DNA from: Apium graveolens
Lineage: Eukaryota; Streptophyta; Magnoliopsida; Apiales; Apiaceae
Assembly: GCF_009905375.1 (NCBI RefSeq)
Contig: NC_133656.1
Coordinates: forward strand, 236,676,396-236,740,395
Direction: 5' to 3'
Length of the DNA: 64,000 nt
Below the pieces are notes generated by a model, which ran no database searches, was not told where the DNA came from, and saw nothing but the letters and a program-made list of their open reading frames with translations. Positions 9,593 through 33,150 of the stretch are shown here, in pieces (positions within the stretch are counted from its first letter, which is position 1; each line of letters starts with the position of its first letter). The translations under genes were made by a program, and so were the position numbers.

Positions 9593-12164
9593 ATGGCGAG
9601 GAAAGGGAAGGGGAAGGAGGTTGAGAAGGATAAGGGGAAGAAGGCCAAGGGCAAGGCCAAAGCCACTAGTACTACAAAGGGCAAGGGCAAGGCTAAGGCC
9701 AAGGGTATGGGCAAAACTAGCGTGCATTTGCGGGATGAGCCAACGGATTCGGATTCGGACCCGAATGATCCGACTCAGCACATGACAAATGCGGAGGAGC
9801 GAGAATGGCGGGGAAGGCGACCTCGATCACATTCGAGTGGTATATATGGAGAGAAACCGCCATTGAAGCCATATCGCATTGATATCTCCGATGGACAGTA
9901 AGTTAAAAAGTTTTTAAATTGCATTATTCCTCTATATTCATATTTTTGGTTCATTGTTCAATATTGTTATGTGAATTGTTAATGTTTATTGTTTTCTTTT
10001 GTTTAAATATAGTATTGAAGATGATACGGCTAAGAAAACGCTTTTGGCTATGATTCGGGAGAAGTGGCCTCTTGGGCATTACACTTATACCGATATCGAA
10101 GAACGTCACCCGGGTTGGTTGAATGCAAGAGTTGAGGAGTTTCAAGTAAGTTAAAATTCAATTTTTTTTGTAATTTTCATATATTTCTTGATTTTATGAT
10201 GCATTTATCTTTGTTTTCTTTTTTTTTTTTGCAATTTTCGCAATATTATAGGCATCTTAAGGGGCAAAGCCGTTCAAAGGCCCGAAAAATTATGGAAGAT
10301 CACATTAAAGTGACGATAAAAAGGATTTTGAACGAGCTTAAGAAGAGGGTGGAGCGAAAAGCAAGGGAGGAGGGCGTGAGCAAGTTGTCTTTGAAGCCGC
10401 CTTATTGGTCCGTTCCTTTTTGGAAGGACCTTTTGAAGTATTGGGAGAAGAACGAAGGACACTTGCACCGGTCATTGGTTGGATCCGCCAACCGACAACA
10501 AGTTGAAAGATTGCATAGTGCCGGTGCAAGGTCATTCAATAAAGTTCGGGAGGTAATATTATTATATTCCATCACACACACATACATACACGTTCACCAT
10601 ATTATTATATTCTATCTCACACACATAAATATTTAATATAAGTTTATTTAATATTTTGAAAGGTAATGACGAACAAAAACAAGAAAAAGCCGACGAAACT
10701 CGAGGTGTGGGATAAATGTCATAGGAAAGTTGGATCCGATCCGGAAAATCCCGTCTACACTACACCGGCCGTCATGCGTATTGCGGTAAATGCATTTTAT
10801 GTGATTTTATGACCATTTATGTGATTTTAAATGCATCTTTAATAAGTGAATTTATATGTATTTTATGTGATTTTAAATGCATTTTAATATGATTTTATGA
10901 CCATTTTATGTGATTTTAAATGCATCTTTAATAAGTGAATTTATATGTATTTTCATGTGATTTTAAATCCATTTTTATGTGATTTTATGACTATTTTATG
11001 TGATTTTAAATGCATCTTTAATAAGTGAATTTATATGTATTTTCATGTGATTTTAAATGCATTTTTATATGATTTTATGACCATTTTATGTGATTTTAAA
11101 TGCATCTATAATAAGTGAATTTATATGTATATTCATGTGATTTTAAATGCATTTTTATGTGATTTTATATGCATTTTTATGTAATTTTAAATGCATCGTT
11201 AATATGTGATTTTATATGTATTTATGTGATTTTAAATGCATTTTTATATGTGATTTTATATGCATTTTATGCGATTTTAAATGCATCGTTAATATGTGAT
11301 TTTATATGTATTTATGTGATTTTAAATGCATTTTTATATGTGATTTTATATGCATTTTTATTTTATTTTAAATGCATCATTAATTGTTTTAAATGAATTT
11401 GTAGGAACGATATGCCGCCATTCTCGAGCGCATGCCCGTGGAGGTTATACAAACGGGTGATCGGGATGAGCCGTGGGATTGGTGGATGGAAGCCTTGGAG
11501 GTCCCCCAAGGTACAAGGCCGAAAAAGAATTATATGGTGGGGTTCCCCAATGCTCGGGCCACCGATCTCTTGCCTACACTTGTTACCCGGTACCGAGATT
11601 CCACACGGAATGAAGCCGGCTCATCCTCATCCGCTCTGAGACAATATGAAGCCATCCCCGACACTTTATATCTTGCCATCGTGAGGAATGTGCTTACGGA
11701 GATCCGTGCTAATCCAAATCGGTTTGCTTACCAACTTTTCGATGCGGAGATAGCTACATCCGCACATACCGCTCTCGAGGCCTCGGATCCATCCTCCGAT
11801 CCTAGCCAAAGGTTACAATGGAATAACCTTATCGGTGGCGAGATCGTGCATATCGTGAGCTCTTTGATTGAAGATATCGTCCAAAAGACGGAAGCTCGTG
11901 TTGCGGAGGTATAATTTTTGACCTTCTTGTTTATTTATTTATTTTCATTCACATGTAAATTTTGTTTCTTCTTTTTAACTAGTTTAATTAAACTTGTATA
12001 TCTAGGAAAACAATCGGCGTGCTATGGAAGTCGATAAGGATTACACGTCCGAGGATGAGGCCTCCGATGATGAGGACTTTGATGATGGCGGCGGTGATGG
12101 CGGCGGTGATGACGGTGATGGCGGTGATGGCGGTGGATCGTCCGATGTTGATTTGTCGGATTAG
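9593..12164 (+). CDS. TnpA-like CACTA transposition protein (Transposase_24 / Ptta-En/Spm type)
   Basis: The proposed exons are 9593-9897, 10013-10145, 10262-10552, 10663-10785, 11405-11908 and 12006-12164, which join in frame to about 504 residues. The N terminus is Lys/Gly-rich (KGKGKEVEKDKGKKAKGKAK), as in a nuclear, DNA-binding protein. The middle has PPYWSVPFWKDLLKYW, then NRQQVERLHSAGARSFNKVRE and LEVWDKCHRKVGSDPENPVY, the core of the plant Ptta/En/Spm transposase family. The end is an Asp/Gly-rich acidic tail (DDGGGDGGGDDGDGG). TnpA binds subterminal repeats and promotes excision; the AACCGACC arrays are its likely sites. The acceptor of exon 3 is uncertain: AG at 10252 would give a stop, so AG at 10261 is used. 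An in-frame ATG at 9566 is an alternative start. Upstream, 8735-8900 looks like a CT-rich non-coding leader exon. Confidence 0.75.
10786..11395 (+). repeat. Minisatellite in TnpA intron 4
   Basis: About 600 bases are built from 20-24-bp variants of ATGTGATTTTAAATGCATTT. Similar units occur in the upstream intron at about 9370-9510. The repeat has produced a spurious long open frame at 11169-11396. Confidence 0.85.
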
Positions 12165-15198: not shown

Positions 15199-15250
15199 AA
15201 GGAAATAATCAGGAGCCAACGTGGGTTGGAGGGACAACCAGCCAACCCAC

Positions 15251-15389
15251 AGCAATGAAACATTGCGGGGGAAAGCAATGTTTCAATACGGGTCTTGGCT
15301 TCCGCAATGAAACATTGCGGGATGTCGCCATGCACAGGAAACATTGCGCATTCCGCAATGTTTTATAGCTGGGCCGCAATGTTTCATTT
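15251..15389. repeat. Left subterminal CGCAATG palindrome cluster, copy A
   Basis: Good copies of CGCAATG-AAA-CATTGCG lie at 15251-15268 and 15302-15320. Degenerate or half copies follow at 15275-15290, 15338-15348, 15352-15364 and 15374-15389. They occupy the first 200 bases of the element, where transposase binding sites usually sit. Confidence 0.85.
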
Positions 15390-15510
15390 TTGGTTAGGCT
15401 CCCAGTTTTTAATGTCCAAATGAAATTTCAACAGTCAAATGAAATTTTTTCAGCAAAATTTTTTTTGTGCCAAATTTAATTTTGTGAATTTTAAAATTCA
15501 GATTTTCACC

Positions 15511-15518
15511 TATAAATA
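15511..15518 (+). promoter_or_regulatory. TATA box (TATAAATA) for the small Lys-rich ORF
   Basis: CACCTATAAATAGTCCTGCC is a textbook plant TATA context. It is followed 25-35 bases later by pyrimidine-rich CTCATCTC and a CT-rich leader (15540-15600), with an ATG at 15610. Confidence 0.6.
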
Positions 15519-15609
15519 GTCCTGCCTCATCTCATTTTTTTTCAACATTCTCTTCTCTATTTTCATTCTACATTTTCTCTTCAACATTATCTTCTCTAAT
15601 ATCCGAAAA

Positions 15610-15834
15610 ATGGTTTCTACTACGATTTAGACAATAATAAGGTAATTATAGATGGTGTGGCTTACGACGGGCCCGAAGGAGAGGAAGACATGGAAATAGC
15701 TCTCCGCCATATTCAAATGGCGCTTGAGCGCAAGAAAAAAAAATGAAGTTAAAGCGAAGGCGGAAAAGTCGAAGAAAAAGAAAGACGACGATAAGGGTGA
15801 TAAAAGCGGTTCTTCCAACACCGTTAAAGTTTGA
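15610..15834 (+). pseudogene. Small Lys-rich ORF of the MULE, frameshifted
   Basis: The ATG at 15610 and the TGA at 15832-15834 are in the same frame, 75 codons apart. The middle (NNKVIIDGVAYDGPEGEEDM, then EIALRHIQMALERKKKK) is only open one frame away. The last part (NEVKAKAEKSKKKKDDDKGD) returns to the first frame after an A-run. Two compensating indels in a once-continuous gene explain this: one near the ATG and one in the A9 run near 15736-15744. The predicted product is about 74 residues, acidic then very Lys-rich, with no family I recognise. Its own TATA box and leader suggest a third MULE gene. Copy B has unrelated AT-rich sequence at this place. Confidence 0.45.
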
Positions 15835-16442
15835 TCATTCTCGTCGACATAAAATGTTATTATGTATTTGTTTTGAAAAAATATTTGAATGTACTCCATT
15901 TATATTTGAATGAAATAAATTATTTAATGTTTTATTTTTCTTGTACTTGTCCAATATATTTTATCAATTTTAAATTTTAATAAACAAATATAATACTAAA
16001 ATTTGAAAATGTGAAAATCTAAAAAAATGAAAATTTATCGAATTTTCGTTATCTATAAAAAAATATAAAATAATTTAGCCCCCAAAATGTTAAACATTTC
16101 TTGGTAACAAACTATATATAAATACCGCATTTTATTTAAGAAATAATTTTTCTTAATTATTATAATCATTATATTTTAACATCCATATAGTTGGATCGTC
16201 AAAATTTGTACTTTACAACTTACACGTCAAGAAATATCATTTGACATAAATATTATGCAAAATTTTCACAAAACTATGTAAAATAGTTGCATATTATAAT
16301 TAAGTTACTCTTATAAATATTTATATTTTCAAAATAACATTTAACATATTAAATGAAATATAATAAGTCTAGAAACTATTTTTTATAATTTTTTTGATTA
16401 ATTTTCTAATTTTAAAGAAAATAACAAAAATAAACATCACAA

Positions 16443-16601
16443 CCGCAATGTTTCATTGCGGTGGACACTTCCCCCCGCAATGAAATTTTGCTGGGGTACG
16501 TTGTAAAATTTTTTTAAACTGCAAATATTTATAGTTGTTGGCTTGGGGGTTTGTACAGTGCCGCAATGTTTCATTGCGGCCATCGCAATGAAACATTGCG
16601 G
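16443..16601. promoter_or_regulatory. CGCAATG palindromes at the transposase promoter, copy A
   Basis: Palindromes lie at 16443-16461, 16475-16494 (degenerate), 16561-16579 and 16583-16601. The last two flank the expected start of transcription, just downstream of the TATA position (about 16519-16526). Copy B keeps ACTATAAATAC at the equivalent place, while copy A has ACTGCAAATAT, so the TATA box is lost in A. The placement suggests that whatever binds the palindrome also controls the transposase gene. Confidence 0.6.
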
Positions 16602-16724
16602 GCGTGCATTTAATGCACACACCTACCTTAAAATGTCTGTATTTTTGAAACATTGTTGTTTCACTGCTTCTTAACATTCTGCTCAAATTTATTCTTCTGA
16701 AAAAAAGGTTAGTATTCAATATCC

Positions 16725-19184
16725 ATGGCTTCTTATTTATTTGATTATTCAAGTTCATCTAGTGATCATAACGATTTTAATTATGTTACCCCCCACACAA
16801 AAAAGAGGGTTTATCGTAAAATCTTTAATGATGATGAAGTAATAGATGTTGATAGTATTGAAGATAAAGTTAATGATCCGGGGAAGCGAAAAACGCATAG
16901 TGATGATGATGTTGGTTTCGGTTGGAAGAATCACGATGTTCACGGTGATTCCGATGATAGTAATGTTTCTTTTAATGGCGATGATGATGATAAAATTAAT
17001 GATGAAAATTTTATTGGAAATATGAATGATGTAGTTCCTTGTGTTGGTATGATGTTTGATTCGTTGGATGAAGCGGAAAGTTTTTATCGAGGTTATGGTC
17101 GAAGTATAGGATTCGAGATAATTATTCGAAGTAGTCATAAGCATTCAAGAAATGGTGGTATATCGTCACGTTTGTATATATGTCGAAAGGGTGGAAGATT
17201 GGGCCCAAAACCCTTGGAAGTTGAAGATAGGGCTAAAGGGAAACGACCTCGAGATGTTATTCCTCGAACTTGTTGTCGTGCTCGTATGTGTGTTGCTCAC
17301 AAAGTAAGCTCAAACAAATGGGAAGTAACCAAGGTCAACCTAGAGCACAATCATGCTATGGTTACATCGGATAAGGTAAATTTCATGCAAAGATCACGCA
17401 ACATAGATCCGTTTACCCGATCTTTGATTGAGTTATTCAACAAATCGGGTATCGAGACCCCGAAAGTGATGAATTTACTTAGTGAGACGTGTGGTGGTAT
17501 TGAAAAAATTGGTTTTTCCGCTCAAGACGTACGAAATGTAATACGTGACATTCGAAGATGGGTTTTTGATTCCGGTGATGCGGAGTGTGGATTGGTTTTG
17601 TTACGAGACTTGAAAAAATAAAGTGATGGCAATTTTTTCTACCGAGTGGATGTGGATGAGGAGAATCGGGTTAGGGGTTTGGTGTGGGTTGATCCTCGTT
17701 CGCTTAACGCGTACAAGAATTTTGGAGATGTGGTGACTTTCGACTCGACATATCGGACTAATAGGTATGACATGCCTTTTATTCCAATTACGGGAGTGAA
17801 TCACCACTACCAAAATATTTTGTTTGGATTTGCACTTATAAGGGACGAGAAAGAGACTACTTATAGATGGGTTTTAAAGACTTGGTTGGAAGCGGTCGAT
17901 AAAAAGCCACTTATTACCATTATTACGGATCAAGACATCGCTTTAAGTAATGCCATTTCCGAGGTTATGCCTAACACCAACCATACATATTGTACGTGAC
18001 ATATTAGTAGCAAGTTTCCCGAGAAACTATCTACTTTGTATACTCAATACTCGGAGTTCAAGACGGATTTTAATGCATGTATCTACAAGTCATTGTCACC
18101 AACGGAATTTGAAGGTAGGTGGGAGGACTTGAAAGAGAAATATGATCTTGAAAATCACAATTGGCTAAATGATATGTATGCAATTAGACGGGAATGGGTT
18201 TTTGCTTTCACGAAACAACATTTTGCCGCCGGTATGACTACCACCTCAAGGAGCGAGTCTATGAATTCATTTTTTGATGAGTATGTGAAAGCGTCGACCG
18301 GTTTGAAAGAATTCATTGAGAATTCACAAAAAGCTTTGGACTCACAATATTTACGGGAGGTTCAAGCCGATTTTGACACCGAGTACAAGGAAAGGGGACT
18401 ATTCTCTAACTCGTCAATGGAGATACATGCCTCCAAGATATACACAAAAGAGATGTTTAAGCGATTTCAAAAAGAGCTTCAAAAAAGTCAATCTTTTGTT
18501 GTGAAAAGCATGAAAGGTTGTGGAGATTATCTTTCAAAGATGTATTTGGTAGAAAAGTCCACCTTGCCGGAGATTAATAGAAGGAATTTTTTCTTGAAGG
18601 TTTCCATCGACGGGAGTTATTCTTGTACATGTAAAAAATTTGAACATTCCGGGATGATTTGTAGACACATGATCCGTTACCTTAACAAGAAACAAAAGAC
18701 GATGATACCGCCAGATCTTGTCTCAATGAGGTGGGCAATAAACGGAAACAAAGTTGCGGGACCTCTACCGTGTACCCCTCGGATGCTTGGTAATGTTGTA
18801 GAATCTCAAACGGCAAGATATAGTGGATTGTGTAAAGCTTTCCAAGGTTTGTCCGTTGTTGGTAGTTGCTCCGTTCGGCGGTACAATTACTTGATGAGCG
18901 TGATCAAGAGAGAAAAGGAGTATGTGATTAAGTCTTTTCCGGGAGAAAAGAGAGAGAAAAAAATAAATGAGGACTATGAAAGTGATGAAGAAGATGATCT
19001 GTTATTAGATCCCCCAAGGTCAGAAACAAAAGGACGTTCAAAAGCGGGTAGATTCAAAAGTGGTATCGAGACGTCAAGTTCAAATAAACAATTTCGAAAG
19101 TGTAGTTTTTGTGGGGCGAGGGAAGAAGGCCATGATAGAAGAAATTGTCCCTCGAGATTATTAGGAAAAAAAGGAAAAAATTGA
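16725..19184 (+). pseudogene. FAR1-like MULE transposase, two in-frame stops (copy A)
   Basis: One frame runs from ATG 16725 to TGA 19184 (820 codons), interrupted only by TAA at 17619 and TGA at 17997. Copy B has CAA and CGG at these places. Domain order: an acidic N terminus (about 1-100); a FAR1 DNA-binding domain (about 105-215: F.SLDEAESFYRGYGRSIGF ... RARMCVAHK ... VNLEHNHAM); a MULE transposase domain (about 320-480) with catalytic Asp in TFDSTYRTN, Asp in IITDQDIALS and Glu in SRSESMNSFF; a SWIM zinc finger (CTCKKFEHSGMICRHM, about 625-640); and a C-terminal CCHC knuckle (CSFCGAREEGHDRRNCP). This protein would cut and move the element in the nucleus. FAR1/FHY3 light-signalling proteins are domesticated relatives, but the position in a MULE argues for a transposase. 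It converges on the PMD-ULP1 gene. Confidence 0.9.
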
Positions 19185-19186
19185 TT

Positions 19187-19785
19187 GTAATTTCTTATTG
19201 TGTACTTTGAAATATTAATGAATTTTAATTAAATATTTTCAATGTTGTTAATGTTAGTACTTGTTGCCATTATTAATAATCCCAAAAAAAGAAGTGACTC
19301 CAAAAAAAATTTGAAAAAAAAGTTATTTTTGTAGATTTTTTTTTCCAAAATTGGGCAGAAAGTTTTCTGTAAAACAGAAAAAGTATTATATAAAAAATAA
19401 ATCATTTGCAAGTGCAATGACCAATCTGCAAATTTATGCAAAACCCAGATTACCCCCGCAATGAAACATTGCTGCATCCGTAATGAAACATTGCGGCATC
19501 CACAATGAAACATTGCGGGCCTAAACTGGGCTTTGCCGAATTTTGCATATTGGTCACTGCACTTGCAAAAGATTTATTTTTTATATAAAACTTTTTCTGT
19601 TTTACAGAAAACTTTCTGCCCAATTTTGGAAAAAAAATCTTCAAAAATAACTTTTTTTCAAATTTTTTTTTGGAGTCACTTCTTTTTTTGGGATTATTAA
19701 TAATGGCAACAAGTACTAACATTAACAACATTGAAAATATTTAATTAAAATTCATTAATATTTCAAAGTACATAATAACAAATTC
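19187..19785. repeat. Large inverted repeat between the convergent MULE genes
   Basis: Left arm about 19187-19472 and right arm about 19504-19785 are close inverted copies: TGTACTTTGAAATATTAATG at 19201 pairs with its complement ending at 19772, and GGAGTCACTTCTTTTTTTGG pairs with CCAAAAAAAGAAGTGACTCC. The centre holds three CGCAATG palindromes at 19456-19472, 19479-19496 and 19500-19519, about 22 bases apart. The left arm starts right after the transposase stop codon, so it is its 3' UTR; the right arm lies downstream of the PMD-ULP1 gene. A transcript through it would fold into a long hairpin. Confidence 0.85.
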
Positions 19786-19904
19786 GGCATGACCTCTTTG
19801 TTTTTAAGTTAAACTTTACCTCTAAAATAAAAAAACCGGCATGACCTATTTATTTTTAAGTCAACCAAAAACCTGTAAAATTTCAAACCAAACCAAAATA
19901 AACT

Positions 19905-20110
19905 TAAAAATGAATGGCCTTGACATGCCAACTACAAACAAACCAAACCAAACTAAACTTAAAAATGAATGGCCTTGACATGCCAACTATAAAAAAAACA
20001 AACCAAACCAAACTAAACTTAAAAATGAATGGCCTTGACATGCCAACTATAAACAAACCAAACCAAACCAAACCAAACTTAAAAAAAATGGCCTTGATAT
20101 GCCAACTACA
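19905..20110 (+). repeat. About 60-bp tandem repeat downstream of the PMD-ULP1 gene
   Basis: There are four units of roughly TTAAAAATGAATGGCCTTGA plus CATGCCAACTAYAAACAAACC and a run of AACCAAA. It gives a false open frame at 19914-20129. It lies in the 3' flank of the minus-strand gene. Confidence 0.85.
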
Positions 20111-20540
20111 AACAAATCAACTAAAATAAATACATCTAACCAACCAAAATAAATACAACCAATCTAAATAAAATACAACCGGGCAAAATATGTACAACTA
20201 ACTAAAGTAACTACAAGTCACTAATCAAATAACAAACTAGTGTCCCGCCTCTCTTTGTCGAATGCCCCACTCAGAAATGTGTCTAGCAACCCCTTTTGAT
20301 AACTCGTGCGCCATCCGATAGTGAAAAGTCTGTACATCAACTTTAGGGTTCCACACAGCTGATGGCAAGGAGATCCCGTTGAGCATAGCGTCCATGTACT
20401 TGGATACATACACACCACAATCATTGCCACCATCTTGCTTGGGTCGAGCATCAAGACCATGAACCCGGGTATATTTCAATGGAAATCGAGATGGATGCAA
20501 ATAATTGAGCATATATGGGATCAACTTTTCCTGCAAATAA

Positions 20541-20702
20541 CGGGAAATGAACCTAACAAGTCATTATTTAATTATTAATCTATTTAAAACTACTGGTAGG
20601 GAATTAAAGAATGATATTTCACGGGAAATGAACCTAACAAGTCATTATTTAATTATTAATCTATTTAAAACTACTGGTAGGGAATTAAAGAATAAATAGT
20701 TA
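20541..20702 (-). repeat. 81-bp tandem duplication in the last PMD-ULP1 intron
   Basis: CGGGAAATGAACCTAACAAG begins at 20541 and again at 20622, with near-identical sequence between. Related text (CTAGTTGTAGGGAATTAA...TTCACGGGAAAATAACC) also occurs in the introns at 21680-21750 and 22845-22915, and as an array in copy B at 31290-32165. Confidence 0.85.
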
Positions 20703-21819
20703 CCATAATGTAATACTGGAAGGGGTGAGCGATGTTCCCTGTTGTGTCTTTGTCGTCCCTAAGAGGATCAATGTTTAGCACTCTCATATTGTTGAGATTA
20801 ACAACAAACAAGAACCAATGAGAGCTATCACACGTGGGGAAAAATGCAAAGTCACAAAACTGAAGAGGCAAGCTACCCCCCTTGTTAGCATAATCTCTAA
20901 AGAACCTCTCCATTGATTTCTTGGCATCACCTTTTAGGGTACTCGGAGAAGCCTAGAATTACAAGTCAAAAGATAGGTTAACATTTATACAGCATAATTG
21001 ATATCTGTTTATAGAAAAGCAGGTTGGAGCATTGCTATTTGTTTAATAGAGTACCTTCAAGTTAGGACAAAACTCAAGTGCCATCGCCATGAAAAAGCTA
21101 GGAGCAATGAAATACCGCCTGGGCTTGAAACTTTCAGTTCTGGGAATTTTTTCCCATTTTTCCCAGAGTTCATCCTCTCTAAGTCTCAAGAGCTCACCAT
21201 AGGCATTGAGAACATCATCCTCCACCCAAAACTCTGGTCGCAAAGTTGTTACTTGGCTATGTGTAAGAGGATAAGTAATGCCCCGCTCACTGTGATCACG
21301 CCAAATGTAATCAACTTTTAAACTCCAGAAATGCCGATACAACCACCTCACTTTCCGATTTTTTAGTGGTCTTGTCATATCACCACGTCGCTCAGGACCA
21401 CCTCGTTTCGCCGCATCCTCCGCCAAATCTTCAATTGAGTCCATCTACAAAATAAACAAAAACACAATTAGCATATTTGGAACTAGTTAATCTAAGGCCA
21501 TTTACTTTAAAAAAGAGTTAAGAGTTATTACATCAAACATGTCTCACAGCTCACTAGGAACAGAAGACTCGCCTATGCCCAAATGTACATATGGAGTGAC
21601 AAGGGAGGAAAAGGCCTCTAAAGATTCTGGAGTAATAGGCATCTGCAATCCATAAATTAAGTACACATTTAACACTTAGTTTAATCCATTTATAACTAGT
21701 TGTAGGGAATTAATCCATTTTAATCCCATTTAGTTGACATAGTAGGGAACAAATAATACCTTTAGTGGAATAGGTTGAAATGTCATAGATCTGTGGAATG
21801 GTGTTGGAGTAGTATAATC

Positions 21820-22310
21820 AACCTGCAATTGGAAGCCGATACATAAACATATTCAACACCCGAAGCTAAAATATTTTAGGTGCATAGAATGACAATATTT
21901 GTTAAATATTTGTACCTGAGGGGGAATGGATACAGGTGTCGGATGAGTGGTGGGTGGATCATCAGCAGGAGATTGAACCTCAACCTGCAATTTGAAGCCG
22001 ATACATAAACATATTCAACACTCGAAGCTAAAAATGTGTAAGTGCATAGGAGGACAATATTTGTCAAAGATTTGTACCTGAGAGGCAATGGATACAGGTG
22101 TAGGAGCAGTGGCGGGTGGAACATCACCAGTAGACTGAACCTCAACCTGCAATTACAAGCCAATACATAAACATTATTCAACACAGGAAGCTGTAAATAT
22201 GTAAGTGCACAGGAGGACAATATTTATAAAATATTTGTACCTTAGGGGAAATAGATACATGTGTAGGAGCATGGGTGGCTGGAATATCACCAGTAGACTG
22301 AACCTCCTGC
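21820..22310 (-). repeat. Tandemly duplicated exon-intron unit (about 163 bp, three to four copies) in the PMD-ULP1 gene
   Basis: Exons 21984-21916, 22146-22078 and 22306-22241 encode similar 22-23-residue peptides of the form (V)EVQSTGDVPPATAPTPVSI. Each is flanked by near-identical intron sequence (GCCRATACATAAACATATTCAACA). Donor-to-donor spacing is about 163 bases. Each exon is phase 0-0, so any number can be added or skipped without changing frame. The result is a Pro/Thr/Ser-rich linker between the PMD and protease domains. Confidence 0.85.
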
Positions 22311-25300
22311 AATTACAGCTGATACAGACATATTAATTGAAGTTCTACGATGCATGAAATGAAAGCTTTTGCTAGAAATTTATACCTCACGTGGACGTTT
22401 AGGGGGGACAAGTACTGCGGTATCCTCCTCAGGACCACCAGTCTCATCCTGCCATTAATGTAAATTAAAGACACACAGGTCATTTACATATTCAATAGAC
22501 GAAATTAAAAAGATCACAAGTTCATGAATGATAGTTATTAGTACCTCACGAGGACGCTTCTGAGAGATAGGGGGCGCTGTCTGTTGCGAGCTACTAGGAG
22601 TTGTATCATGAATGTCTACCTCACGTGCATCTCCAGCAGGAGGCTGACGCTCAACAAGAGGCTGCTGAATATCTTTCGGTCTGATGAAAGCGGGCCTACT
22701 GTATCCAAGACCCTTCCACTCAGTCATTACCCGATCATAATGTGCGAGAAAATCGGGAATGACATCATAGAACCAGCTAGGAGGGCCGCGCATGTGGATC
22801 ATGTATGTCATTTTCATAGCACTCTCTAACTACAAATAAATAACGATAATCCATTTTACAAGTAGTTGTAGGGAATTAACGATAATTCACGGGAAAATAA
22901 CCTTAATAGTTGTAGGAAAACAGGTAAAGACTACAATTGGAAACAAGTGAAGAATACCATACCGCATCACCCATCATCTGCTGAGGGTACCAGTCACGGG
23001 GCTGTATGATATCGCCCTCAGGGGGTACACAACGAGCGATCCTCATCTTACTTACCCGTCTATACCACTGCATATACTCGGCGAGAGATACAAACCCGCC
23101 CTCAACAATCTCCGGCCCGCCCGTAGCCACATAACTCTCCCACTCGGCAACATACTGCTGATGCATAGCAAGACGGTGAGGCCGCTGAAAAGAAGACTGT
23201 CTCTCCAACCTCAGAACAGCGTGGTCAAACGGATCATCCGGTATATGCTGGCACATCCCAGACTGTCTCAGTACCCTATCAGAATACTGGTACTCAATAA
23301 AAATCAAATGCTACCAGCGGGATACGACCAAGAGCCATATGATGGCACACCGGGAAATGAGTAGCATCAACATCATCAGGATCAGCCTCTCTCTCGTAAA
23401 GTCTGGCATACGGCTGCCATGTCACCCAGTGTAGCTGTAAACTGTCCAAATCACCCCGGTAGTTACGTGTATGGTGGTGGGGGTTTATTCTACTAACCTT
23501 CACTGGCTCGGCCCACGCGCACGCCCTCGGCCACCGAATCTCCTGCTGAGGCGCAATCTCCGGCCTCCCGGGTGCCAATCTCTCGTAAGCCCACAACATC
23601 AATAGCAGACTACACCCTTAAAGGTGCGAACAGACCTATCAGCCGACAAAGTCAGTGATCTGTACAAGTGTGCCAAAACAGCTGCACCCCATGCATAATC
23701 ACGAATCTCCGACTCCTCCATCAGCAACTGCATATACCGGGGATGCACCACGTCCCGCGAAGATGTAGGGAAAAGTACGCCTCCAATAATAAATAACATA
23801 TAGGCCCGTGTATGCACTCTGCACTGTACCTCAATCTAAGCAGCATCCATATCTCTGGTATCAGCTCTCGCCCCGTACCGGTTCCTCAGCTGGTTAAAAT
23901 GCAGCTCATCCTTATAGAACTCCTTGCGCTCCTGCTCTGACATAGACGGATCCTCCCTGTTCTTCATGAACTACGCCTTCGGGTGCTCAAGCTCGCCCTG
24001 GGTGAGAGGACGGCCAGTAACCGGTAATCCCAGAATCATATAAACATCCTCCAAAGTAATAGTCATCTCCCCACACGGCAGATGGAATGTGTTAGTCTCT
24101 GGCCTCCACCTCTCAATCAAGGTCGTAATGAGTCTGATGTCATTCTGCCGAACCACCCGGGGGTTGCCGAACGCCCCAAAACCATATGCATCCAACAGAG
24201 CCTGCTGATCTGGAAGTATATGCCACTCACCCATCCTCGCTGTCAGCTGTCTAACATCTACGGTATTCCTGTCCCCGCCCTCCCAGATCAGACTGCTAAT
24301 ATGGCGGTCCTGCATAGTCAGCAAGGATCGATCAAGAGGTCCACACTCCATGTCCATAGTATCTGCAATATTTTAAACCAAAAAGCCCATCAGTACAACT
24401 CCAAACAAACAGTAATTAAGAAAAAGAAAACAAACAAATGCGTGAAAATATCATCTCAACACAATCAAATTATTACAACACATGTTTTCTAAATTTTTAA
24501 GTGTATTACTTTGCACGTAAATTCACATAAAAATTAACAAAAACTACTGTATATTTTCCATTTTTATTCGAATTATTCACTCAACAACAAGTGCAAACAA
24601 TCCGGAGTTCGTCCCTCATTTAATCAGAAACATATATACTAATATGTCATCTATCAATTTATTTGTGTTTCAGAGAGTTCTTAGCCGTTGAATAGAAACA
24701 AATATACACGAACTATAACTTGAAAAACGACCTTAGCTTCTCAACCTAATTTTATACGCCACCATAAAACTTGCAAGTACAGATATGGAAGCAATTACAC
24801 AACATATGTTTGCATAACACAAAAGATGTGAGATTTTAAGTTATATTTTAGAAGATACAATTGATTAAAGGGAACGACTAATAGCATTCAGTTAGAAGCA
24901 GCCTAGCTACTAAGAGATACAAAAAATTAGAACACAGTGATGCAGACTATGTTCATAGGGTTCGGCTATCATTTGAACTCCAACACATAAGCTTTTTCTT
25001 ACAGATCCATAACTCTTCTACAAAAACTTATCAAGCATTTCATCAACAAAAACTTTCTTTACATCACGGATTCATAACTCTTCTACAAACAGAACAACAT
25101 CATAAAGATCCCAAGTACAATCATATAACTGTCTTAATAGTCAATTTATCAAGCTCCTTACTGTTAATTTCTTTCATAAATCATAGCCAAAGTAGTATTC
25201 ATAAATCATAGTCAATTTATCAAGCTCCTTACTGTAGTATTCTTTCATAAATCATATATATAAGTTAAGATTCTCTATCTTGATATTCTGTGTACTAGTC

Positions 25301-26021
25301 TTCTTCTTCTTGTTCTGTTTTATTTACTACTTTCCCTTCAATTTCTTACCAACTATTCCCACCTTACCATTAGTTGTAATAAAATGCATATTATCCGTTT
25401 GTGTCCAAAGTAGTATACATAAAATTTCACATTTTACGTGGTATTCTTCTTAGTTACTCCCTCTGTCCCTCCCTTCGTCGATCCCGACCAAATTCAAAGA
25501 ATCCGACGAACAAAGTCCGGCCAACAGTCGAATCGCCTCAATTCTAAACCAAACTTCATGATTTTGATATCAAAATGATGTTCAGAAGGAGTACAATCTA
25601 TTTACATGATCCTAATCAACCACAACAATCCGTATAACTCAAGAAATCGAAAATAAAAAATCAAAAACCCGAGAACTCGGGTTCATCGATTTAGCATACC
25701 AAAAATTACGAAAAATACATAAATAGCATCCTCAGATCATCTTAATGCTTATTCTAACAACTAAATCATTCAACAATCCACAGAAATCAAACCCCCAATT
25801 ATATCCCTAACGGTTAAAAACAAACATATTTCGGAAAATTACCTCAAGAATGTATGAGCGAGAGAGAGAGAAAGAGAACAAAGCTGCTTGATTAAGGAAG
25901 ATATCAGGAGCTGTTTGATTTCGCTGAAATCGCTTTTGATCGCCGGTGTTTTGTGTTTGTTTCTGGGTTGGGGCGGGTATAATGGTAGTTTTCGCATGTG
26001 TATGTGTTCAAAAGACGACTA

Positions 26022-26061
26022 CCGCAATGCTTCATTGCGCTACCGCAATGATTCATTGCGG
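26022..26061. promoter_or_regulatory. CGCAATG palindromes upstream of the PMD-ULP1 promoter
   Basis: Two palindromes lie back to back, at 26022-26039 (CCGCAATGCTTCATTGCG) and 26043-26061 (CCGCAATGATTCATTGCGG). They sit 40-85 bases upstream of a weak minus-strand TATA (ATTATAC near 25980) and the likely 5' UTR start. The central three bases differ (CTT, ATT) while the arms are kept. Confidence 0.6.
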
Positions 26062-26197
26062 TAGTAGGTTTATGTTTATTTAAAATTCGAATTAATATTT
26101 AATATTATTAATATTTTCAAATATTCAAATATTTTAATTTATTACTAAAAATATTGAATAATTAAAATTTTTAAATATCAAAATATTTTCCTTTATT

Positions 26198-26745
26198 ATT
26201 TTAATATATATTATTAAATATTTAAATATATTAATTTCATTTTAATGTTTCAATACTTTTAAAATATTGAATATTAAATATAATATTTAATATTATTATA
26301 AAATATTTTATAATATTTTTTAAATATTATATTTTTGATCAGAAATATTAAGAATAATATCTTATTAAATTAATATTTATGTAGTTAAAAAAGCATTGAT
26401 AAATGAATTAACATAGGAAAAGAGTAAAAAAGGGAATGGAGTATGTGGGCCACTCCCGCAATGTTTCATTATTTTAATATATATTATTAAATATTTAAAT
26501 ATATTAATTTCATTTTAATGTTTCAATACTTTTAAAATATTGAATATTAAATATTAAATATAATATTTAATATTATTATAAAATATTTTATAATATTTTT
26601 TAAATATTATATTTTTAATCAGAAATATTAAGAATAATATCTTATTAAATTAATATTTATGTAGTTAAAAAAGCATTGATAAATGAATTAACATAGGAAA
26701 AGGGTAAAAAAGGGAATGGAGTATGTGGGCCACTCCCGCAATGTT
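26198..26745. repeat. 273-bp tandem duplication in the AT-rich right part of MULE A
   Basis: ATTTTAATATATATTATTAA occurs at 26198 and 26471, and the two following 270 bases are almost identical, including GGGAATGGAGTATGTGGGCC and CCCGCAATGTTTCATT. Copy B has one unit only (about 32440-32700). Confidence 0.9.
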
Positions 26746-26776
26746 TCATTGCGCCCTCGCAATGAAACATAGCGGC
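26735..26776. repeat. Right subterminal CGCAATG palindromes, copy A
   Basis: CCCGCAATGTTTCATTGCGC at 26734-26753 is followed by CTCGCAATGAAACATAGCGG at 26756-26775. They lie about 100 bases inside the right end, mirroring the left cluster. Confidence 0.8.
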
Positions 26777-26868
26777 AATAGCGGATCCTAGCCATTCGTT
26801 TTTTACTTCAATGGTCCTGATTTGTTGGTTGGATAGGGTCCTTATCCAACTATGGCTGTGGATAGGGA

Positions 26869-26871
<3 letters not shown>

Positions 26872-26923
<52 letters not shown>
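26872..26923. repeat. (TA)n microsatellite between MULE copies A and B
   Basis: About 50 bases of AT/TA dinucleotides with one C interruption separate the right end of A from the left end of B. A (TA)n tract also abuts the left end of A. Confidence 0.9.
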
Positions 26924-26924
<1 letters not shown>

Positions 26925-26974
26925 AGGTCCAATCAGGAGCCAACGTGGGTTGGGCGGGAGTGGCAGCCAACCCA

Positions 26975-27092
26975 GCGCAATGTTTCATTGCGGCAGGAGA
27001 CAATGTTCCAATGCGGGCCTGGACCACCGCAATGAAACATTGCGGCAGGTGGCCCATGCACAGGGAACATTGCGGCGCAATGTTTCATTTTT
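26975..27092. repeat. Left subterminal CGCAATG palindrome cluster, copy B
   Basis: GCGCAATGTTTCATTGCGGC at 26974-26993, ACCGCAATGAAACATTGCGG at about 27026-27045, and half-sites near 27000 and 27068-27092 occupy the same positions relative to the end as in copy A. Confidence 0.85.
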
Positions 27093-28451
27093 GGGCCGGT
27101 CCACAGATTTTAATGCCCCAACTGCCACTCTCTTTAGCTTTTAATGCCCCTTTTAGCTTTAAATGCCACTTTTTTTATAATTAAATATAACTTACTATTT
27201 TAAATAGCTAATATTAATATTCCACTTAATTTTTTTAATAATATGTAATAATTATTAATATTCAATATTAATATATAGCTTAATTACTTTATTCAAAAAT
27301 AATATTAATATTTTTTAATAAGAAATATTAATATTATTTATTAAAAATATAAAAATAATATTAATATTCAACAGTAATTAATTTTTTAAAATATGTTAAC
27401 ATTAAAATATAAGTAAAAGTAATATTTTAAAATATTATAATATAGCTCATTTACTTTATTAATATTAATAACTGTTTAATACTTTAAATTATTCTTTTTA
27501 TTTTATTTTTTCTGTAGTTTTCAAATATTAAATATTAATAATAATATTAAATATGAATATCTTAAGGTGTTAATATTAAATAGTAATTTAATATTAATTT
27601 ATACTGACCATATAATAATTCAATATAATTATATAAAATATGAATATTTTAAAATATGAATATTAAATTCTAGTTTGGTAAGATATTTATATTTAATATT
27701 ATTATTAATATTTAATATTTGAAAACTACAGAAAAAAATAATTTAAATTATTAAATAGTTATTAATATTAATAAATTCATACTAAAATATATTAATATAA
27801 TTTTAATATTATTTATATATTTTAATGTTGTGTGAAAAAGCGGTGTCTTTAATATGTATTATTATCATAATTTTTTGATATGATTATATTTTAACATCCG
27901 TATAGTTGGATCATCAAAATTTGTATTACTATTGTGGCAAATATTCACAAGATTATGTAAAATAGTTATATTTTTTTAATTAAGTTACTCTTGTGAACAT
28001 TTAAATTTTGAAATTAAAATTTCACATATTAAAAGAAATATAAAAAGTCTTGAAACTATTTTTCAATATTTTTTTGGATAAATTTTCTAATTTTAAAGAA
28101 ATAAAACAAATATGTTTTCCATTACTAATATAAAGGATGAAATTTAAAAAATATTGTAATTTTTTGATATGATTAGAATAATTATATTTTAACATCCGTA
28201 TAATTTGATATTTGAAATTAATATTTTATAACTTATATGTCAAGAAATATCCTGTGACACAACTATTGTGCCAAATATTCACAAAACTATATAAAATAGT
28301 TGCATATTATAATTAAGTTATCTTATAAACATTTATATTTTAAAATTAAAATTTAACATATTAAATGAAATATAATAAGTCTAGAAACTATTTTTTAATA
28401 TTTTTTTGAATAATTTTCTAATTTTAAAGAAAAAAAACAAAAAAAACCCCA

Positions 28452-28618
28452 CCGCAATGAGTCATTGCGGGGTGAAGTATCCACCGCAATGAAACATTGT
28501 GGGGGTGTGTTGTACATTTTTTTTAAAACTATAAATACTTACGGTTGTTGGCTTGGGGGAGGGTGTACAGTTATGCACTGCCGCAATGTTTCATTGCGGC
28601 CCCCACAATGAAACAATG
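28452..28618. promoter_or_regulatory. TATA box and CGCAATG palindromes at the transposase promoter, copy B
   Basis: Palindromes occur at 28452-28470 (centre AGT), 28483-28501, 28581-28599 and a decayed one at about 28603-28618. A TATA box (CTATAAATAC, about 28529-28538) is intact here, unlike copy A. The layout of two palindromes upstream and two downstream of TATA is the same in both copies. Confidence 0.6.
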
Positions 28619-28749
28619 TTGTAGTGCAGTAAATGCACACACCTACCTTAATTTGTCTATATTTTAGATCTTATACTGCTGTTTTTACTGCTGCTTAACA
28701 TTCTACTCAAATTTGTTCTTCTGAAAATCAAGGATAGTATTCAAAATTC

Positions 28750-30750
28750 ATGGCTTCTTATTTATTTGATTATTCAAGTTCATCTAGTGATCATAACGAT
28801 TTTAATTATGTTACCCCCCCCCCACAAAAAAGAGGGTTTATCGTAAAGTTTTTAATGATGATGAAGTAATAGATGTTGATAGTATTGAAGATAAAGTTAA
28901 TGATCCGGGGAAGGGAAAAACACATGTTTTAATAGATACTGATGATGATGTTGGTTTCGGTTGGAAGAATCACGATGTTCACGGTGATTCTGATGATAGT
29001 AATGATTCTTTTAATGGCGATGATGATGATAAAATTAATGATGAAACTTTTATTGGAAATATGGATGATGTAGTTCCTTGTGTTGGTATGATATTTGATT
29101 CGTTGGATAAAGCGGAAAGTTTTTATCGAGGTTATGGTCGAAGTATAGGGTGCGAGATAATTATTCGAAGTAGTCATAGGCATTCAAGAAATGGTGGTAT
29201 ATCGTCATGTTTGTATATATGTCGAAAGGGTGGAAGATTGGGCCCAAAACCCTTGGAAGTTGAAGATAGGGTTAAAGGGAAACGACCTCGAGATGTCATT
29301 CCTCGAACTTGTTATCGTGCTCGTATGTGTGTTGCTCACAAAGTAAGCTCAAACAAATAGGAAGTAACCAAGGTTAACCTAGAGCACAATCATGCTATGG
29401 GTACATCGGATAAGGTACAATTCATGCAAAGATCACGCAACATAGATCTGTTTACCCGATCTTTGATTGAGTTATTCAACAAATCGGGTATCGAGACCCC
29501 GAAAGTGATGAATTTACTTAGTGAGACTTGTGGTGGTATTGAAAAAGTTGATTTTTACGCTCAAGACGTACGAAATATAATACGTGACATTCGTAGACGG
29601 GTTTTTGATTCCGGTGATGCGGAGTGTGGATTGGTTTTGTTACGAGAATTACAAAAACAAAGTGATGGAAATTTTTTCTACCGAGTGGATGTGGATGAGG
29701 AGAATCGGGTTAGGGGTTTGGTGTGGGTTGATCCTCGTTCGCTTAACGCGTACAAGAATTTTGGAGATGTGGTAACTTTCGACTCGACATATCGGACTAA
29801 TAGGTATGACATGCCTTTTATTCCAATTACGGGAGTGAATCACCATTACCACAATATTTTGTTTGGATTTGTACTTGTAAGGGACGAGAAAGAGACTTCT
29901 TATAGATGGGTTTTGAAGACTTGGTTGGAAGCGGTCGATAACAAGCCACTTATTACCATTATTACGGATCAAGACATCGCTTTAAGTAATGTCATTGCCG
30001 AGGTTATGCCTAACACCAACCATACATATTGTACGCGGCATATTAGTAGCAAGTTTCCCGAGAAACTATCTACTTTGTATACTCAATACTCGGAGTTCAA
30101 GACGGATTTTAATGCATGTATCTACAAGTCATTGTCACCAACGGAATTTGAAGATAGGTGAGAGGATTTGAAAGAGAAATATGATCTTGAAAATCATAAT
30201 TGGCTAAATGATATGTATGCAATTAGACGATAATGGGTTTTTGCTTTCACGAAACAACATTTTGCCACCGGTAAGACTACCACCTCAAGGAGCGAGTCTA
30301 TGAATTCATTTTTTGATGAGTATGTGAAAGCGTCGATCAGTTTGAAAGAATTCATTGAGAATTCACAAAAAGTTTTGGAGTCACAATATTTACGGGAGGT
30401 TCAAGCCGATTTTGACACCGAGTACAAGGAAAGGAGACTATTCTCTAACTCGTCAATGGAAATACATGCCTCCAAGATATACACAAAAGAGATGTTTAAG
30501 CGATTTCAAAAAGAGCTTCAAAAAAGTCAATCTTTTGTTGTGAAAAGCATGAAAGGTTGTGGAGATTATCTTTCAAAGATGTATTTGGTAGAAAATTCCA
30601 CCTTGCCGGAGATTTATAAAAGGAATTTTTTCTTGAGGGTTTCCATCGACGGGAGTTATTCTTGTACATGTAAAAAATTTGAACATTCTGGGATGATTTG
30701 TAGACACATGATCCGTTACCTTAACAAGAATCAAAAGACGATGATTCCGC
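28750..30750 (+). pseudogene. FAR1-like MULE transposase, truncated and broken (copy B)
   Basis: It starts with the same ATGGCTTCTTATTTATTTGA as copy A. A C-run near 28813-28822 is longer than in A and shifts the frame. There are stops at 29358 (TAG for Trp), 30159 (TGA for Trp) and about 30231 (TAA for Glu). The FAR1 domain, the DDE-type core (FDSTYRTN, ITDQDIALS, SESMNSFF) and the SWIM finger (CTCKKFEHSGMICRHM) are recognisable. The sequence ends at KTMIPP, where a deletion joins it to PMD-ULP1 exon sequence in the opposite sense. It keeps the ancestral codons at the two positions that are stops in copy A. Confidence 0.9.
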
Positions 30751-31290
30751 CAGTAGACGGAACCTCCTGCAATTACAGCCGACACAGACATATTAATTGA
30801 AGTTCTATGATGCATGAAATGAAAGCTTTTGTTAGAAATTTATACCTCACGTGGACGTTTAGGGGGGACAAGTACTGCGGTATCCTCCTCAGGACCACCA
30901 CTCTCATCCTGCCATTAATGTAAATTAAAGACACACAAGTCATTTACATATTCAATAGACGAAATTTAAAAGATCACAAGTTCGTGAATGATAGTCATTA
31001 GTACCTCACGAGGACGCTTCTGAGAGATAGGGGGCGCTCTCTGTTGCGAGGTACTAGGAGCTGTATCATGAATGTCTACCTTACGTGCATCTCCAACAGG
31101 AGGCTGACGCTCAACAGGAGGCTGCTGAATATCTTTCGATCTGACGAAAGCGGGCCTACTGTATCCAAGACCCTTCCACTCAGTCATTACCCGATCATAA
31201 TGTGAGAGAAAATCGGGAATGACATCATAGAACCAGCTAGGAGGGCCGCGCATGTGGATCATGTATGTCATCTTTATAACACTCTCTAAC
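30751..31290 (-). pseudogene. Fragment of the PMD-ULP1 gene (copy B)
   Basis: The minus strand carries the counterparts of copy A exons 22829-22545 (YMIHMRGPPSWFYDVIPDFL...) and 22448-22386 (PPKRPRE), and the edge of the duplicated small exon. The mobile domain and protease exons are deleted. The fragment joins the transposase at a shared CCAG. Confidence 0.85.
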
Positions 31291-32165
31291 TACAAATAAA
31301 TAAACAAGTAAAAGCTGTAAATAAGTCCTTATTTTCATTTTTAATCCATTTTACAAGTAGTTATATGGAATTATGATAATTCACGGGAAAATAACCTAAA
31401 TAAGTCCTTATTTTCATTTTTAACCCATTTTACAAGTAGTTATAGGGAATTAATGATAATTCACGGGAAATTAACCTAAATAAGTCCTTATTTTCATTTT
31501 TATTCCATTTACAAGTAGTTATAGGGAATTAATGATAATTCACGGGAAATTAACCTAAATAAGTCCTTGTTTTCATTTTTAATCCATTTATAACTAGTTG
31601 TAGGGAATTGATGATATTTCACGGAAAATTAACTTAAATAAGTCCTTATTTTCATTTTTAATCCATTTTACAAGTAGTTATAGGGAATTAATGATAATTC
31701 ACGGGAAATTAACCTAAATAAGTCCTTATTTTTATTTTTAATCCATTTTACAAGTAGTTATAGGGAATTAATGATAATTCACGGGAAATTAACCTAAATA
31801 AGTCCTTATTTTCATTTTAATCCATTTTACAAGTAGTTATAGAGAATTAATGATAATTCACGGAAAATTAACCTAAGTAAGTCTTTATTTTCATTTTTAA
31901 TCCATTTACAAGTAGTTATAGGGAATTAATGATAATTCACGGGAAATTAACCTAAATAAATCCTTATTTTCATTTTTAATCCATTTACAAGTAGTTATAG
32001 GGAATTAATGATAATTCACGAGAAATTAACCTAAATAAGTCCTTATTTTCATTTTTAATCCATTTTTAACTAGTTGTAGGGAATTGATGATATTTCACGG
32101 AAAATTAACCTAAATAAGTCATTATTTTCATTTTTAATCCATTTTACAAGTAGTTATACGGAATT
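31290..32165. repeat. About 80-bp minisatellite, eleven units, grown from an intron
   Basis: Units read roughly AATAAGTCCTTATTTTCATT, TTTAATCCATTTTACAAGTA, GTTATAGGGAATTAATGATA, ATTCACGGGAAATTAACCTA. In copy A the matching intron (22845-22915) has about one unit. Some units carry AACTAGTTGTAGGG instead of AAGTAGTTATAGGG, showing partial homogenisation. Confidence 0.9.
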
Positions 32166-32170
32166 AATGA

Positions 32171-32267
32171 TACAAACCCGCCCTCAACAATCTCCGGCCC
32201 GCCCGTAGCCACAACTTTCCTACTCGGCAACATACTGCTGATACATAGTAAGACGGTGAGGCCGCTG
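32171..32267 (-). pseudogene. Scrap of the PMD exon (copy B)
   Basis: About 97 bases match copy A 23090-23190 (the region encoding QRPHRLAMHQQYVAEW on the minus strand). They are bounded by deletions on both sides and joined directly to the right subterminal palindromes. Confidence 0.8.
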
Positions 32268-32276
32268 AAAAACGAC

Positions 32277-32317
32277 TACCGCAATGCTTCATTGCGGCAA
32301 TGAAACATTGCGGTAGT
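32277..32317. repeat. Right subterminal CGCAATG palindromes, copy B
   Basis: CCGCAATGCTTCATTGCGG and an overlapping CGGCAATGAAACATTGCGG share one arm. They correspond to 26022-26061 of copy A. A decayed copy (CCGCAATGACACATAGCGG) lies at about 32700-32718 near the right end. Confidence 0.8.
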
Positions 32318-32795
32318 GGATTCATGTTTATTTGATATTCGATATAATATTTAACATTATTAATATTTTCAAATATTCAAATATTTTCATTTATTATTAA
32401 AAATATTGAATAATTAAAATATTTAAATATCAAAATATTTTCATTTATTATTTTAATATTTATTATTAAATATTTGAATATATTAATTTCATTTTAATGT
32501 TTCAATACTTTTAAAATATTAAATATTAAATATAATATTTAATAATATTATAAAAATATTTTATAGTATTTTTTAATATACAATCTTTAATCAGAAATAT
32601 TAAGAATAATATCTTAATATTTATGTAGATAAAAAAGCATTGATAAATGAATTAATATAGAAAAAAGGCAAAAAGGGAAATGGAGTATGTGGGTCACTGC
32701 CGCAATGACACATAGCGGCAGTAGCGGATCCCAGCCTTCCGTTTACCACTTCAACGATCCTGATTTGTTGGTTGTAAGGGGTCCCTATCCAACTA

Positions 32796-33150
32796 TAGCA
32801 TTTCACTACCCATTATCTTTCATAGTTTTATAAAATTTTGAAAGGTAATTTAAACGTTCACATATATTATATTTTATCACTTTTGATATTAATAAAATAT
32901 GTAATCTTAACCCCACATTCACTCAATTTTCTTTTGTGTTTGTAACTTATAAATTGATTAGTCGGTCACAAAGTGCTAAAATTTATATAAATATATCATG
33001 TAATTTATAAATGGATGTAGTTCACGAAATTTGGTAGGAAATACTATATATATTTCAACTATTGTGCAAGCAGTTGACACATGATTTAAAAATTTATATA
33101 ATTGAATATTAATATTTTATGTATTTGCATTAATTATGATTAAGATATTG
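32796..33150 (+). repeat. Dispersed repeat family, right half of the interrupted copy
   Basis: It resumes with GCATTTCACTACCC and continues as in 4245-4600 (CTCACTCAA..TTTT, ATATATCATGT.ATTT.., TTCA.GAAATTTGG). The first half ends at 15180, so the 17.6 kb between is insertion. Confidence 0.75.

Follow-up and report, generated by a model that had tools for sequence, protein, structure and literature searches.

Introduction

The ends of MuDR contain sites for MURA, and the subterminal regions of En/Spm contain sites for TNPA; in both elements, one element protein has repeated terminal sites that overlap promoters. To our knowledge, neither MURA nor TNPA sites lie at a junction between convergent genes. 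Here we analyse a 19-bp palindrome, CCGCAATGNNNCATTGCGG, which recurs in a family of FAR1-type Mutator-like elements (MULEs) of celery (Apium graveolens), starting from two related copies, A and B, in a 64,000-bp stretch of contig NC_133656.1 (positions 236,676,396 to 236,740,395; hereafter the window). MuDR and En/Spm differ from this family in their sequences, and En/Spm belongs to another superfamily.

VANDAL21, a MULE of Arabidopsis, resembles the celery family in having a transposase and two further genes, a short non-coding motif that is partly tandem, and motifs private to each lineage. According to the relevant passages of PMC5735166 and PMC10398659, VANC21 binds a short motif that is enriched in non-coding VANDAL21 DNA, namely in introns, between genes and at the termini, and that often stands in tandem; VANCs related to it recognise other targets. 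The two systems are also alike in that one further protein carries a DUF1985/PMD-like domain. The celery family differs, as far as these passages go, in its 19-bp palindrome with a fixed 3-bp centre, its FAR1-type transposase, the Ulp1 peptidase on its PMD protein and the presence of sites at the ends of gene-less elements.

FHY3 and FAR1 are domesticated MULE transposases which form dimers and bind promoters through the FAR1 domain (PMC13306707, in part), so that domain, dimers and origin are the points of likeness; on the other hand, the motif bound by FHY3/FAR1, CACGCGC, has just one match in copy A and one in the 90 kb of family flanks. Finally, MULEs with an antisense PMD gene and MULEs with a Ulp1-like region share with the celery family a transposase plus a PMD/ULP1 gene, often in opposite orientation, and 9-bp target duplications, but the relevant passages of the two papers describe no dispersed palindrome (PMC6446971, PMC2528002). 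In a collection of open-licence papers, we found no description of the palindrome sequences and, for celery together with Mutator, only one unrelated review.

Results

Palindromes in the window

Allowing up to three mismatches, CCGCAATGNNNCATTGCGG matches the window 23 times, always within 15250-32718, compared with a mean of 0.05 and a largest value of 1 in 100 dinucleotide-preserving shuffles. This agrees with the original prediction of about two dozen palindromes in MULE copies. With up to four mismatches, 28 matches are found in 15200-32800, and the 64 kb contain 17 + 15 copies of the half site CCGCAATG, every one inside this same interval. All 23 palindromes lie within the two copies, 15 in copy A and 8 in copy B; since the eight of copy B all have counterparts in copy A, they are not independent. 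Their predicted placement at both ends, at the transposase and PMD-ULP1 promoters and, as a triplet with 22-bp spacing, at the junction of the convergent genes holds throughout, with the correction that the first palindrome begins at 15250 and not at 15251. The copies and their palindromes are the following:

15200..26871, + strand: MULE copy A, about 11.7 kb; ends set with reference to three copies read end to end
15250..15392: left-end cluster of copy A; sites at 15250, 15302, 15353 and 15374, plus a degenerate one at 15273; a matching left-end cluster exists in three other copies
16443..16601: transposase-promoter cluster of copy A; sites at 16443, 16475, 16561 and 16583; equivalent positions in relatives
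19456..19518: junction triplet of copy A; sites at 19456, 19478 and 19500, spaced by 22 bp, at the centre of an inverted repeat
26022..26061: PMD-ULP1 promoter pair of copy A; sites at 26022 and 26043; present also before the PMD gene in the lineage of loci L039 and L041
26736..26775: right-end cluster of copy A; sites at 26736 and 26757, plus a partial copy at 26456
26924..32800 (approximate), + strand: MULE copy B, a relative with an internal deletion; right end placed tentatively
26975..27093: left-end cluster of copy B; sites at 26975 and 27027, plus degenerate ones at 26998 and 27075
28452..28621: transposase-promoter cluster of copy B; sites at 28452, 28484 and 28581, plus a degenerate one at 28603 (4 mismatches)
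32279..32313: PMD promoter pair of copy B; sites at 32279 and 32295, with part of one arm common to both
32700..32718: right-end site of copy B, a single palindrome

Confinement to one MULE superfamily

Over the whole genome (3.33 Gb), we count 5753 palindromes with up to two mismatches, compared with 22 matches to the reversed pattern. The surroundings were sampled in two ways. In the transposase-first sample, 58 matches to a relative of 825 aa were listed and the best 30 extracted, each with 1500 bp of sequence on either side; one of these loci (L018) is the window's own copy A. Palindromes are found within 600 bp before the transposase in 30/30 loci, mostly near -285, -253, -166 and -144 from the ATG, and within 800 bp after it in 26/30 (the exceptions being L023, L025, L030 and L033), mostly near +290, +312 and +335. 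Overall, the 90,000 flanking bases of these loci hold 263 palindromes and the 71,496 transposase coding bases hold none; the reversed pattern is absent from all 30.

In the motif-first sample, 50 exact sites listed from the first 125.65 Mb of contig C1 were grouped at 6 kb into 22 clusters, all of which belong to this MULE superfamily. The assignment relies on homology to the transposase, PMD, ULP1 or the small gene described below, or on a match to the 825-aa relative, for 16 clusters; on DNA identity to those (66-93%) for four (L005, L042, L045 and L048); and on the structure of gene-less elements flanked by 9-bp repeats for the remaining two (L006 and L043). The weakest assignments are those of L044, based on a 32-aa ULP match, and L005, based on 66% DNA identity. 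The original prediction withstood both of its refutation tests: exact sites do not stray from the superfamily in this sample, in line with the genome-wide excess, and the relatives carry the motif, at the promoters of all 30 transposase loci and at both ends of the three copies read end to end. Viral contigs gave four exact matches, one site each, with centres CAC, TCG, GTG and CTG and without relatives, which we attribute to chance; no relatives of the transposase were found in these contigs.

The three copies read end to end are E24 (~12.5 kb), E13 (~8.5 kb) and E11 (~9.3 kb), which contain 16, 17 and 20 palindromes, respectively (up to three mismatches). In each of them, the sites form six non-coding clusters, located at the left end, the small-gene promoter, the transposase promoter, the convergent junction, the PMD-ULP1 promoter and the right end. 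The PMD exons are kept only in E24; E13 and E11 have lost them but possess ULP1 exons and the PMD-ULP1 promoter. All three copies are bordered by 9-bp target duplications, as is typical of MULEs, identified by eye as AATTAATAA (E24), TTATTTCTA (E13) and TATATATAT (E11). Of the long terminal inverted repeats expected of MULEs, the long copies show only a short terminal match plus a right end that is self-complementary.

Rules of the site

The spacer between the arms was examined in 55 stretches (269.5 kb), some of which had been chosen by the spacer-3 pattern, unlike the transposase-first ones. With up to two mismatches, 376 sites have a 3-bp spacer and none has a spacer of 0-2 or 4-10 bp; with up to three mismatches, the counts are 410 at 3 bp vs. 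38 for all other spacers together. Exact half sites standing alone are rare (10/521). A version with a 4-bp spacer, CCGCAATGNNNNCATTGCGG, gives 402 genome-wide matches at up to two mismatches, compared with 40 for the control; of these, 2 are exact, 3 have one mismatch and 397 have two, the last perhaps representing another repeat family.

The distances between neighbouring palindromes concentrate at 21-23, 31-34, 51-53, 63 and 84-89 bp. A set of 32 distances, compiled by hand as one list per cluster type and lineage, is phased at the 10.5-bp helical repeat with V = 0.62, a value reached in none of 100,000 random draws. The strict 3-bp spacer and the spacings near whole helical turns fit the earlier proposal of a site for a protein dimer.

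The same proposal assumed constant arms around a variable centre. As regards the centre, this does not hold within the window lineage, where 18/23 window sites have AAA or TTT, depending on the strand; between lineages the centre does change, being mostly AAA/TTT in the window lineage, AAT/ATT in L007, L039, L041 and L047, and ACC/AGC in L045. The constancy of the arms stands when diverged lineages are compared by eye. Among 477 sites, 432 arm pairs are changed on one arm only vs. 14 on both, 11 of the latter being still complementary; as one-arm changes far outnumber two-arm changes, what has been preserved is more than pairing.

Gene-less elements with palindromes

Cluster L006 is a mini-element with four palindromes and ~40-bp imperfect terminal inverted repeats, as judged by eye. 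A search scored 40 places among 196 candidates, and 21 copies were read (L006 and 20 more). All 21 have 2-6 palindromes, their aligned consensus is 153 bp, and several have clean 9-bp target duplications, observed as TATTATTAT, AGGTTTATA, ATCTTTTGG, ATAACTATT and TATCATCTA. A separate 1286-bp element, L043, is flanked by TATTTATAA repeats; three palindromes stand close to either end, and its interior matches none of the proteins tested. Since these moving elements carry ends and palindromes but no genes, a role in cis is indicated, with the reservation that the mini copies go back to one ancestor.

A sister lineage with a different palindrome of the same geometry

In L039, the transposase is 55% identical to the P0001 relative over the N-terminal 278 residues and 76% identical in the FAR1 domain; the palindromes are retained, and in L039 and L041 they precede the PMD gene as well. 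A more distant sister transposase, P0040 (43% identity, 39% in the FAR1 domain), has 56 scored places in the genome, and the four loci read (L081-L084) contain neither a CCGCAATG half site nor any such palindrome. Instead, 4/4 loci carry CCGCGGAA-N3-TTCCGCGG palindromes, which have the same 8-3-8 shape. A pair of these, 33 bp apart, is placed ~190-240 bp before the start of the open reading frame, and one or two further sites follow ~1.4 kb beyond the transposase match. This second palindrome does not occur in L005-L080 or in the window; genome-wide, it has 1121 matches (vs. 32). Among the 15 sister transposases that lie on C1, on C2 or within the first 20 Mb of C3, 13 have an exact sister site within 3 kb. 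Conversely, among 50 listed exact sister sites, 27 have a listed transposase within 6 kb, 30 have either a listed transposase or a listed PMD within that distance, and 20 are left unassigned, the transposase and PMD lists being restricted to best matches.

Had PMD been absent from the sister lineage, the transposase would have been singled out; this idea was rejected, since a convergent PMD is present there. Using 51 of 133 PMD rows together with 43 P0001-type and 56 P0040-type transposases, we found a convergent PMD within 25 kb of 13/43 and 19/56 transposases, respectively, and within 8 kb of 8 and 18; the same-strand count is 0. According to its coordinates, one sister palindrome (C1:189515959) sits 1.2 kb before the start of a PMD gene, as in the window lineage.

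Two additional observations concern these genes. At positions 3879-4268 of L081-L084, an extra open frame follows the sister transposase on the same strand; it matches the C-terminal part of P0089, is at least 186 aa long in L081 and belongs to no Pfam family. Furthermore, C10:161129259-161148663 holds a tandem cluster of seven PMD matches, each open over the whole profile, which may be host PMD genes of MAIN/MAIL type.

Which protein could read the palindrome?

We lean, though only slightly, towards the view that CCGCAATG-N3-CATTGCGG is a putative site for an element-encoded homodimeric DNA-binding protein, most likely the FAR1 domain of the MULE transposase. A dimeric protein carried by the element is suggested by the shape of the site, its spacer, the spacing between sites, their confinement and their lineage-private change, taken together. 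Three points speak for the transposase: the palindrome stands at the ends as well as in elements devoid of genes; in this protein family, DNA is known to be read by the FAR1 domain; and this domain has been conserved or has diverged along with the palindrome in three lineages. According to this scheme, transposase dimers would bind neighbouring palindromes on one face of the DNA and could bring both element ends together for transposition; at the promoters and the junction, they might act as activators or repressors of the genes of the element, and mobility and expression would then be tied together by one protein. A new lineage would arise when protein and sites change together. The original prediction is supported in part; both the choice of protein and the coordination of transposition with transcription, which it had already proposed, are what we infer from the sequences.

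More tentatively, and with our doubts outweighing our confidence by a little, this may extend to the whole FAR1-MULE superfamily: each lineage would possess a private 19-bp operator (8-N3-8), co-evolving with an element-encoded dimer and serving both as end site and as operator at all promoters and at the junction. One protein would run the element, and code changes would split lineages. Systems in which a protein and its site are private in sequence are known from VANDAL/VANC. Two lineages of one family in one genome, with different palindromes of identical geometry in similar places, could make specificity accessible to in vitro swaps of FAR1 and PMD domains. In addition, these data suggest a function, open to testing, for the PMD-ULP1 gene that many MULEs carry, and they offer a candidate for the ancestral type of site read by the FAR1 domain, which gave rise to FHY3/FAR1 by domestication; the natural elements of ~153 bp may approach a minimal substrate.

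Several findings weigh against this interpretation. The arms are not measurably better conserved than their flanks in the young family (0.921 vs. 0.918) and hardly better than the rest in the mini-elements (0.937 vs. 0.925). In divergent pairs they fare better in 10/16 rows, a figure which drops to 8/16 after correcting for the choice of sites by likeness, and in the L040/L038 pair they are worse (0.70 vs. 0.84). The expectation that arms would exceed flanks is therefore upheld clearly only between lineages, and by eye: for instance, the L039 promoter DNA hardly aligns with copy A outside the palindromes. An 11-bp period fits the spacings nearly as well as the helical repeat (V 0.60), the 21 mini-element copies descend from one ancestor and count as one event in addition to L043, the motif-first sample comes from a single part of one contig, and only two palindrome types were read. 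The CACGCGC sequence bound by FHY3/FAR1 is unlike either palindrome (PMC13306707, in part). Lastly, both main lineages have a convergent PMD gene, so that co-variation does not single out FAR1.

This last point equally fits the main rival, which we regard as unlikely but worth serious attention: the convergent PMD-ULP1 protein, instead of the transposase, would bind the palindromes in non-coding DNA and free the element from methylation of its DNA or from silencing of another kind, in the way VANC21 acts on VANDAL21. The non-coding, often tandem targets of VANC21 and the different targets of its relatives are paralleled by the palindromes, which likewise avoid the transposase coding sequence, form a 22-bp tandem at the junction and are lineage-specific. 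Moreover, VANC carries DUF1985 (as described in part of the literature cited above), and PMD exon 2 of the window gives a match to this domain (E 3e-4), although its 21.2 bits are below the cut-off of 35.1 and PMD scores better (56.4 bits). However, the word "palindrome" is absent from the main text of the VANC paper, and the VANDAL motifs are not piled up in the celery family: YAGTATTAY occurs 2 times in copy A and 15 times in 90 kb of flanks, and AGTTGT[CA]C, expected in arrays, only 2 and 17 times. We found no DNA-binding activity described for a PMD protein, a point left open in the relevant part of the MAIN/MAIL1 paper (PMC9899485). The gene-less 153-bp elements, mostly ends and palindromes, indicate a role in transposition, although anti-silencing targets might be kept too. 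These sequences cannot separate the transposase and PMD-ULP1 readings. As for the known motifs of VANC, FHY3/FAR1 and MAIN/MAIL1, they were considered as a source of the palindromes and do not explain them.

A division of labour, with the transposase acting at the ends and PMD-ULP1 or the small protein competing or cooperating with it at the promoters, is improbable in our estimate; a single site type does serve the ends, three promoters and the junction, but one protein would suffice for this. Binding by a host transcription factor, whose enhancer the element would have borrowed, appears very improbable. It would suit the sites often found ~50-140 bp upstream of the small-gene TATA box and those within 300 bp of the transposase ATG, but not the confinement of the motif to the MULE superfamily in the sample (22/22 clusters), its presence in gene-less elements or the other sequence used by the sister lineage. 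Least credible of all is the formation of hairpins or cruciforms, or of by-products of slippage or template switching, instead of protein sites, since the palindromic shape, some tandem repeats, a centre flipped from AAA to TTT at one homologous site between copies A and B (as palindrome inversion would give) and the complementarity left in 11/14 both-arm changes are countered by the 432 pairs changed on one arm only, by arm letters kept between lineages beyond pairing and by the constraint on spacer and spacing.

Genes of the two window copies

In addition to the palindromes, the following features were found in the two copies:

15510..15834, + strand: small third gene of copy A, broken; TATA box at 15510, ATG at 15610
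16725..19187, + strand: transposase gene of copy A (FAR1-type MULE), interrupted by two in-frame stop codons
19189..19784: inverted repeat between the convergent genes, with 166-bp outer arms that are 94% complementary
20237..24372, - strand: PMD-ULP1 gene of copy A, several exons, convergent with the transposase; PMD PF10536 and Peptidase_C48 PF02902
28750..30750, + strand: transposase of copy B, truncated and broken

The copy A transposase combines an N-terminal FAR1 domain (PF03101, E 1e-16) with a C-terminal SWIM domain (PF04434, E 7e-5), as in FAR1/Jittery-type MULEs, and the MULE domain proper (PF10551, E 6e-28) is recognised at 29397-30161 in copy B, which identifies the protein as a MULE transposase. 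With its convergent gene containing PMD and Peptidase_C48 exons, the family belongs to the PMD/ULP1-bearing MULEs. Both termini of copy A adjoin AT runs, where a 9-bp target duplication is indistinguishable from repeat. The best protein matches to the window come from Apium graveolens (96-97%). A search of solved structures with the FAR1 part returned only a weak match, AFT2 (E 0.43). One celery record, P0049, is named RPP13-like resistance protein and joins a MULE transposase domain to resistance-protein domains (among them PF00931, NB-ARC); it is either a real fusion or an annotation artefact.

The inverted repeat of ~600 bp starts right past the transposase stop codon, has the junction triplet at its centre and is present also in three other copies. 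It could yield a hairpin RNA from either gene.

The small third gene, missed in the earlier description, is an addition to the anatomy of the element. Its frame of 76 codons is open in L009, L011, L019, L026 and L038, and its product of ~76 aa, acidic and then lysine-rich, has hypothetical celery proteins as relatives and no Pfam family above the cut-off. A TATA box, CTATAAATAG, is placed 85-101 bp before the ATG in 23/30 loci where the start was located, and palindromes are often found at -138 and -106 from it, or at -117 and -54. In copy A, a deletion at 15420/15424 altered the left part of the element and removed the palindrome cluster of this gene, which is seen in three other copies.

Finally, ~11 tandem copies of a 79-bp unit occupy 31318-32172 in copy B, with one related unit at 22847 in copy A, and other tandem arrays are found in the window at 10787-11384, 39035-39862 and 41044-41726, built from units of 90/181 bp and 361-364 bp.

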